64,000 bases of DNA, from assembly GCF_001399755.1 (NCBI RefSeq), contig NZ_LJCP01000011.1:124001-188000 (forward strand), in the 5' to 3' direction. The stretch comes from Thiohalorhabdus denitrificans. GTDB taxonomy: Bacteria; Pseudomonadota; Gammaproteobacteria; Thiohalorhabdales; Thiohalorhabdaceae. This document shows, piece after piece, positions 49,729 to 60,331 of this stretch (position 1 is the stretch's first letter; each line of letters starts with the position of its first letter). Position numbers and translations under genes: made by a program. The notes below the pieces were generated by a model. It worked only from the letters and a program-made list of their open reading frames with translations, searched no databases and was not told the origin of the DNA.

Positions 49729-49774
49729 TGGACGAGCTTTCCAGAAAAATTGGGTTTTTTCTGGAAATCGTCCA
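49729..49774. promoter_or_regulatory. Long inverted repeat upstream of the RiPP cassette
   Basis: Arms TGGACG...TTTCCAGAAAAA and TTTTTCTGGAAA.CGTCCA form 18 pairs around a six-base loop, 116 bases before the precursor gene. The rest of the 344-base gap from 49546 holds no gene that I can see. It may be an operator or an RNA stem; no clear promoter was found beside it. Confidence 0.6.
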
Positions 49775-49889: not shown

Positions 49890-50219
49890 ATGACGGATGA
49901 GCGCAAGACCGGCAGCAACGGGTTCAATTACATGCTCGGGGCCACGGTGGCCGGAGGCCTCGCCCTGGGCTCGCTCGGCGCCCAGGCCGATACCAACCCC
50001 TTTCAAGTGGCCGACCTCGGCAGCGGCTACATGGTGGCCGAAAACCAGGCGGAGGGCCGGTGCGGCGGCGCCACCGACGACGATAAGAAAGGGGAAGAAG
50101 GCAAGTGCGGCGGCATGAGCGACTCCGACAAATCCAAGGGCGAAAAGGACAAGGCCGCCAAGGACAAGAAGGATGGCGGCGAAGGGAAATGCGGTGAGGG
50201 CAAGTGCGCCGGTGGCTGA
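49890..50219 (+). CDS. HvfA-like RiPP precursor with EGKCG motifs
   Basis: The 109-residue protein has a signal-peptide-like N-terminus (hydrophobic about 14-31, AQA before residue 34) and a Lys/Asp/Gly-rich tail with four Cys, each in an EG(K/R)C(G/A) motif: Cys58, Cys73, Cys101 and Cys106. In Haemophilus, HvfA EGKCG motifs are modified by an MNIO enzyme to copper-binding oxazolone/thioamide groups. The next two genes encode such an enzyme and its partner. A GGGAGG site precedes the ATG. Modification of all four Cys is an inference. Confidence 0.85.
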   Translation: MTDERKTGSNGFNYMLGATVAGGLALGSLGAQADTNPFQVADLGSGYMVAENQAEGRCGGATDDDKKGEEGKCGGMSDSDKSKGEKDKAAKDKKDGGEGKCGEGKCAGG

Positions 50220-51057
50220 CGGCCTCCCGACAGGAGGTTTGAACGGGGCGGGGCTCGGCCTGCGCCGGGCCCTAGTGGCCCCCCTCCTGGAGCAGCCGGG
50301 GGCCGACCTCGACTTCCTGGAGGTGACCCCGGAGAACTGGATCGGCGTGGGCGGCGCCCGCGGAAAGGACTTCCGCCGCGCGGTGGAGGGCCGCCCGCTG
50401 GCCGCCCACGGCCTGTCCCTCAACATCGGTGGCCCCGCCCCGCTCGACCACGCCCACCTCGACGCCCTCAAGGGCTTCCTGGACGGCCTGGACGTGGCCG
50501 TCTACAGCGAGCACCTCTCCTTCTGCGCCGACGACGGCCAGCTCTACGACCTGCTACCGATCCCGTTCACCGAGGAGGCGGTGCGCTACGTGGCCGGGCG
50601 CGTCCAGCGGGTCCAGGAGCACCTGGAGCGGCCCCTGGCCCTGGAGAACGTCTCCTACTACGCCGCGCCCGGACAGGAGATGGGCGAGGCGGAGTTCACC
50701 GCCGCCGTGGCCGAGGAGGCCGACTGCCACCTGCTGCTGGACGTCAACAACGTCTACGTGAACAGCGCCAACCACGGCTACGCCCCGATGGCCTTCCTGG
50801 ACGCCCTGCCCGCCGACCGCGTGGCCTACCTCCACATCGCCGGCCATCGCCGCGAGGCCCCGGACCTCCTCATCGACACCCACGGCGCGCCGGTGATCGA
50901 CCCCGTTTGGGACCTGCTGGACACCGCCTACCGGCGCTTCGGCCCGCTGCCCACTCTGCTGGAGCGGGACACCGAGATCCCGCCGCTTCCGGAGCTGCTG
51001 GAGGAGGTGGCCGCCATCCGCCGCGCCCAGGAGCGGCATGCGGAGGCCGAGGCATGA
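50212..51057 (+). CDS. MNIO-family (DUF692) RiPP maturase
   Basis: MNIO enzymes are multinuclear iron oxidases that modify Cys of RiPP precursors (MbnB, HvfB, BufB). The 281-residue TIM-barrel protein has the family order of metal-ligand motifs: AHGLSLNIG (His66), YSEHLSF (Glu100, His101), ALENVSYY, LLLDVNNVYVNSANHG, YLHIAGH, IDTHGAPV and LLERDTEIP. The GTG at 50212 overlaps the precursor 3' end by eight bases, and no better start with a good ribosome-binding site was seen, so the start is uncertain. It is coupled to the DUF2063 gene by ATGA. Confidence 0.9.
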   Translation: MADGLPTGGLNGAGLGLRRALVAPLLEQPGADLDFLEVTPENWIGVGGARGKDFRRAVEGRPLAAHGLSLNIGGPAPLDHAHLDALKGFLDGLDVAVYSEHLSFCADDGQLYDLLPIPFTEEAVRYVAGRVQRVQEHLERPLALENVSYYAAPGQEMGEAEFTAAVAEEADCHLLLDVNNVYVNSANHGYAPMAFLDALPADRVAYLHIAGHRREAPDLLIDTHGAPVIDPVWDLLDTAYRRFGPLPTLLERDTEIPPLPELLEEVAAIRRAQERHAEAEA

Positions 51058-51839
51058 GCCGGCGGGGCGGGGACGAGCCCGCGCCCCCGGCGGCCCTGCG
51101 CGAGCAGCAGGAGGCCCTCACCGCCCACCTGCGCGACCCGGACCGCCATCCGCCCCCACCGGGCCTCGACGAGCGGGGGCGCTCCGTCTACCGGCGCCTG
51201 GTATTCAACAACCTCCACGGCCTGCTCGCCTCCACCTTCCCCGTCCTGCGCCGGACTCTCGACGAGGAGGCCTGGCGGGAGCTGGTGGCGGACTTCCTCG
51301 CCGACCACCGCGCCGCCACGCCCTATTTCCCCCGGGTGGCCGAGGAATTCCTCGCCTACCTGGCCGAGGGGCGGGGCGAGCGGCCGGAGGACCCGCCCTT
51401 TCTGCCGGAGTTGGCCCACTACGAATGGGCGGAGCTTGCCCTGTACACGGCGGACGAGGACCCATCCGGCGTCCCCGCCGACCCGGACGGCGACCTCCTC
51501 ACCGGAACACCCGTGCGCTCGCCCCTGGCCTGGAGCCTCCGCTACCGCTCCCCCGTGCACCGCATCGGCCCCGACTTCCGGCCCGAGGAACCGCCGGGGG
51601 CGCCCACCTGCCTGGTGGTCTACCGCGACCGCGCCGATGCCGTCGGCTTCCTGGAGATCAACCCCGTCACCGCCCGCCTCCTGGAGCTGATGGAACAGGA
51701 GCCGGCCCCCGGAGCGGAGCTGCTGCGCCGCATCGCCGCCGAGATCGCCCACCCCGACCCTGAGCGGGTGGTGGCGTTCGGCGCGGACATCCTCGCCGAC
51801 CTGCGCCAGCGGGACGTGGTGCTTGGCACGTTCCCCTAG
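51054..51839 (+). CDS. DUF2063/HvfC-like partner protein
   Basis: The 261-residue protein starts with a DUF2063 domain (VYRRLVFNNLHGLLASTFPVLRRTLDEEAWRELV, then RVAEEFLAYL and LAHYEWAELAL) and a C-terminal domain typical of HvfC/MbnC-like partners. In characterised systems it binds the precursor leader and supports the MNIO enzyme. The ATG overlaps the MNIO stop (ATGA). The DoxX-like fourth gene of the Haemophilus operon is not present next to it. Confidence 0.88.
   Translation: MSRRGGDEPAPPAALREQQEALTAHLRDPDRHPPPPGLDERGRSVYRRLVFNNLHGLLASTFPVLRRTLDEEAWRELVADFLADHRAATPYFPRVAEEFLAYLAEGRGERPEDPPFLPELAHYEWAELALYTADEDPSGVPADPDGDLLTGTPVRSPLAWSLRYRSPVHRIGPDFRPEEPPGAPTCLVVYRDRADAVGFLEINPVTARLLELMEQEPAPGAELLRRIAAEIAHPDPERVVAFGADILADLRQRDVVLGTFP

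Positions 51840-58754: not shown

Positions 58755-60331
<1,577 letters not shown>

Follow-up and report, generated by a model that had tools for sequence, protein, structure and literature searches.

Three overlapping genes on the forward strand of a Thiohalorhabdus denitrificans contig (positions 49890-51839 of the window, by which we mean the whole 64,000-nucleotide stretch analysed) encode a precursor peptide, an MNIO enzyme (DUF692) and a DUF2063 partner protein. They very probably constitute a minimal hvfABC-type cassette (captophorin / Buf_EGKCG-oxazolin) that would make a Sec-exported, Cu(I)-binding 5-thiooxazole peptide, a reading to which we give a probability of about 0.88. A preliminary description of this DNA had proposed overlapping genes for a secreted Cys-motif peptide, a DUF692 enzyme and a DUF2063 partner, and the open reading frames and profile scores bear this out. 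It had also taken the host to be an autotroph, in agreement with four matches to the RuBisCO large subunit in the genome, one of them within the window (59336-60259).

The heterocycle of HvfA is now assigned as 5-thiooxazole, and 5-thiooxazoles are installed by FonBC, HvfBC and NgoBC, the products of which bind copper. From these characterised homologues we infer the 5-thiooxazole chemistry, the Sec export, the copper binding and the modification of all four precursor cysteines. The best-supported reading of the product is accordingly a predicted one, a periplasmic Cu(I)-binding peptide that would carry 5-thiooxazoles.

Enzyme, partner and family assignment

The MNIO gene (50212..51057, + strand, 281 residues) most likely starts at the GTG at 50212, overlapping the precursor gene by 8 nt, and its end overlaps the start of the partner gene by 4 bases (ATGA). 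The enzyme scores 396.8 bits against the HvfB model NF003818, above the cut-off of 360, and 341.7 bits against PF05114 (MbnB_TglH_ChrH); its nearest solved structure is PDB 3BWW (E 1.2e-71). The partner (51054..51839, + strand, 261 residues, starting with the ATG at 51054) scores 305.1 bits against the HvfC model NF050145, of PME-type 1, for which the cut-off is 142. Its DUF2063 and NGO1945_C / RRE domains (PF09836 and PF22106) are both above cut-off, and its nearest solved structure is PDB 3DEE (E 1.6e-9). Both 3BWW and 3DEE have been assigned in the literature to the MNIO/partner family. The genome as a whole holds only this one MNIO.

Residues known from the iron site and the catalytic centre of 5-thiooxazole MNIOs have their equivalents in the window enzyme. 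By our own mapping of HvfB residues through 3BWW, Asn179, Asp222 and His224 align with HvfB N175, D242 and H244, which are required for activity, and the aspartate that acts as catalytic base is kept as D253, equivalent to FonB D249. None of these four residues varies across 140 aligned loci, in which a few genomes are counted twice, and the same holds for His66, His101, Glu145, Asp177 and His208.

Two other families of copper peptides were considered and rejected. The Buf1 and Buf2 bufferins, for example those of Caulobacter vibrioides, are likewise RiPPs of the MNIO-DUF2063 type; they are exported by Sec and use thiooxazoles to handle copper, but they have other precursor families; the window MNIO reaches 271.8 bits against the BufB model NF050167 (cut-off 310), and the precursor has no Pfam match, to DUF2282 or to any other family. 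A methanobactin cassette (MbnABC) is excluded by a score of 39 bits against an MbnB cut-off of 325 and by a partner of the DUF2063/HvfC type. The closest characterised systems are instead of the Hvf and Fon type. The hvfABC(X) locus of Haemophilus influenzae (oxazolin) shares the EGKCG-motif precursor, for which a Sec signal is predicted in the window cassette, the HvfB-type MNIO and the HvfC-type partner, whereas its operon contains a DoxX gene that has no counterpart near the window cassette, and HvfA carries six cysteines in three AEGKCGEGKCG pairs rather than four in two solitary motifs and one pair. The fonABC locus of Fontimonas thermophila (fontiphorin) is, like the window cassette, a minimal three-gene gammaproteobacterial cassette with EGKCG motifs, but its product has seven modified cysteines.

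The precursor and its relatives

The precursor gene (49890..50219, + strand) runs from the ATG at 49890 to a stop codon ending at 50219 and encodes 109 residues. On inspection, its N-terminus has a basic start, a hydrophobic stretch and an AxA site, indicating a predicted Sec signal peptide of residues 1-33 (49890..49988, + strand), probably cleaved after AQA; this region aligns with that of 68 family precursors in an N-terminal profile. Directly after the predicted cleavage site lies the segment DTNPFQVADLGSGYMVAE (NPF...SGY; 49989..50042, + strand). Of 85 family precursors, 70 have a segment of the NPF...G(Y/F) type, in most precursors directly behind the signal peptide, and the term NPF is absent from the family papers searched for it. 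The peptide contains exactly four cysteines, all of them inside EG(K/R)C(G/A) motifs. Two motifs are solitary, namely EGRCG around Cys58 (50052..50066) and EGKCG around Cys73 (50097..50111), and two form the terminal pair EGKCGEGKCA with Cys101 and Cys106 (50181..50210), all on the + strand. These are the four motifs, including EGRCG and EGKCA, that had been read from the sequence before. The pattern is more than chance, since none of 1000 shuffles of the peptide contained more than one EG[KR]C[GA] motif.

Family precursors were gathered from the neighbourhood of homologous enzymes and partners. When a profile of 83 such precursors from other genera, the window's own genus being left out, is searched against the 645 open reading frames of the window, the precursor ranks first at 79.3 bits (E 8.7e-24), the next frame reaching 7.8 bits. 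An N-terminal profile lacking the Cys core also places it first (41.2 bits, E 3.7e-12), with 4.7 bits for the next frame and 5.5 bits for the best shuffle. Because the enzyme and partner pass their cut-offs and this profile matches, membership of the HvfA / Buf_EGKCG / captophorin family stands, and the earlier suggestion of an HvfABC-like, probably copper-binding MNIO RiPP is well supported as far as the family is concerned.

The precursor falls under both NCBIfam cut-offs for the HvfA family, with 14.4 bits against 19.5 for NF050137 and 15.5 against 95 for NF050188. The congener precursor of genome G001 clears NF050137 at 19.8 bits, and ordinary family precursors with three and four pairs are also under the cut-off of NF050188, the HvfA equivalog model. 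Some sparse precursors beside intact MNIO genes (L130, L135 and L006) miss the two cut-offs as well. Both models are thus narrow, and for this reason the missed cut-offs are not weighed against membership. Such a cut-off is an annotation threshold that stands outside the published definition of the family. As a separate observation, six family precursors (L039, L044, L106, L089, L112 and L114) show by eye an EF-hand-like stretch between EGKCG motifs; PMC12452194 describes a fusion of a related type.

The cassette occupies the same place in the window and in the congener G001, in the order ppsA, hvfABC, an esterase gene and a gene for an MBL-fold protein. The congener cassette (L145) shares the layout of two solitary motifs and a terminal pair, an MNIO that is 78% identical, and the identical EGKCGEGKCA end. 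All four cysteines and the second solitary motif are kept; the first motif reads EGKCG in place of EGRCG, and the linkers vary. Over 106 codons, the two precursors differ with dN 0.27 and dS 0.91. In a third congener (L099, G002:C54:1-2300), the gene for an HvfC-type partner follows ppsA directly, and the 155-base gap between them (412-568) holds no precursor, no MNIO and no recognisable remnant of either; no MNIO was found in this genome, which is an 82% complete draft.

Upstream of the precursor, a perfect 12-base inverted repeat, TTTCCAGAAAAA / TTTTTCTGGAAA, with a 6-base loop lies at 49738-49767. That it might be a repeated element was rejected, as it occurs once in the genome and is not seen upstream of the G001 cassette. 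Rfam gives no match to a known structured RNA in the cassette or close to it up to E 1, and a consensus scan at the cassette finds no sigma-70 promoter and no terminator.

Motif spacing and the fate of the cysteines

In the proposed mechanism, the signal peptide of the precursor may serve as, or contribute to, the leader, which the RRE domain of the partner would hold so as to bring the core to the MNIO. A mixed-valent Fe(II)/Fe(III) diiron site in the enzyme would then use O2 to convert the cysteine of each EG(K/R)C(G/A) motif into a 5-thiooxazole, with a mass change of -4 Da each, and the modified peptide would leave through Sec to bind and buffer Cu(I) in the periplasm. The two motif variants are plausible substrates, since published substrate scans show that FonBC tolerates Arg as the third and Ala as the fifth motif residue. 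Among the 85 precursors compared, EGRCG occurs in 8 and EGKCA in 6.

The motif spacing had been regarded as unusual, a view that does not survive comparison. With layout classes that depend on the chosen start codons and on the grouping of cysteines at most 6 residues apart, solitary motifs are found in 50 of the 85 family precursors, 4 of which are wholly solitary, and at least two solitary motifs followed by a terminal cluster in 12. The exact 1-1-2 layout, for which genome mining had been proposed, recurs in the congener and at L132, which belongs to an unrelated genome within the class.

Modification of the two solitary motifs is uncertain, because FonBC modified a two-repeat FonA substrate and left a one-repeat substrate unmodified. 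The same machinery might thus convert only the terminal EGKCGEGKCA pair, with Cys58 and Cys73 staying as thiols or forming disulphides. The identity of the terminal pair in the congener, against the variation of motif 1 and the linkers, fits this idea. The one-repeat FonA substrate was also shorter, however, and precursors with solitary motifs alone exist beside intact MNIO genes (for example L006, L075 and L120), an arrangement hard to explain if the enzyme never acts on a solitary motif. We consider restriction to the pair to be improbable, though the most credible of the alternatives, and modification of all four cysteines to be the preferred reading.

Physiological role and the Thr254 position

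Neither a copper gene nor a DoxX gene adjoins the cassette, and the neighbours are housekeeping genes, which weighs against the main reading; the genome has one DoxX gene, on a different contig. A search of the genome for further precursors with the motif pattern gave two single matches on another contig. The lack of adjoining copper genes, together with the published linkage of MNIO-PME1 clusters to oxidative stress and to metal stress in general (PMC12668002), would be consistent with a peptide whose main physiological role concerns not copper but a different metal or oxidative stress. The characterised 5-thiooxazole peptides nevertheless bind Cu(I), and we hold such a role to be unlikely.

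Residue 254 of the MNIO (codon 50971-50973) is Thr at the site of FonB Phe250, which is a substrate contact in Lys-Cys-type MNIOs. Phe occupies this site in 122 of the 140 aligned loci, and Thr is restricted to the window, the congener G001 and L109. Perhaps the genus has retuned its MNIO in step with a precursor whose motifs are isolated, the enzyme then handling single, widely spaced cysteines or leaving some as thiols. We regard this as unlikely, but if true, the product would be a copper peptide with four sparse sites, in contrast to oxazolin with its dense pairs. A correlation of Thr254 with Cys-Ala motifs was rejected, as such a motif occurs not only in both Thr254 lineages but also in 6 of 70 Phe254 genomes, and a test would need more than two Thr254 lineages. 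That the loss of the conserved Phe might signal a different modification of the precursor cysteines, such as oxazolone/thioamide, is very improbable, given that FonB F250A and F250D still formed 5-thiooxazole and that the enzyme and partner are of the HvfB/HvfC type.

The product had been called probably undescribed, which stands for the individual peptide and fails for its family, of which about 2,000 HvfA / Buf_EGKCG / captophorin precursors have been collected (PMC12452194) and which sits among more than 24,000 MNIO-PME1 loci (PMC12668002). The cassette is well supported as an ordinary new member of this large and recently described bacterial family of copper-binding peptides, to which it adds one low-copy member, and it illustrates that some precursors with sparse motifs escape both of the current NCBIfam models for HvfA. 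With two solitary and two paired cysteines, the precursor is a compact substrate of natural origin with which to ask whether 5-thiooxazole MNIOs need adjacent repeats, and, with its own enzyme, it is also suited to asking whether the Phe/Thr position governs that need.
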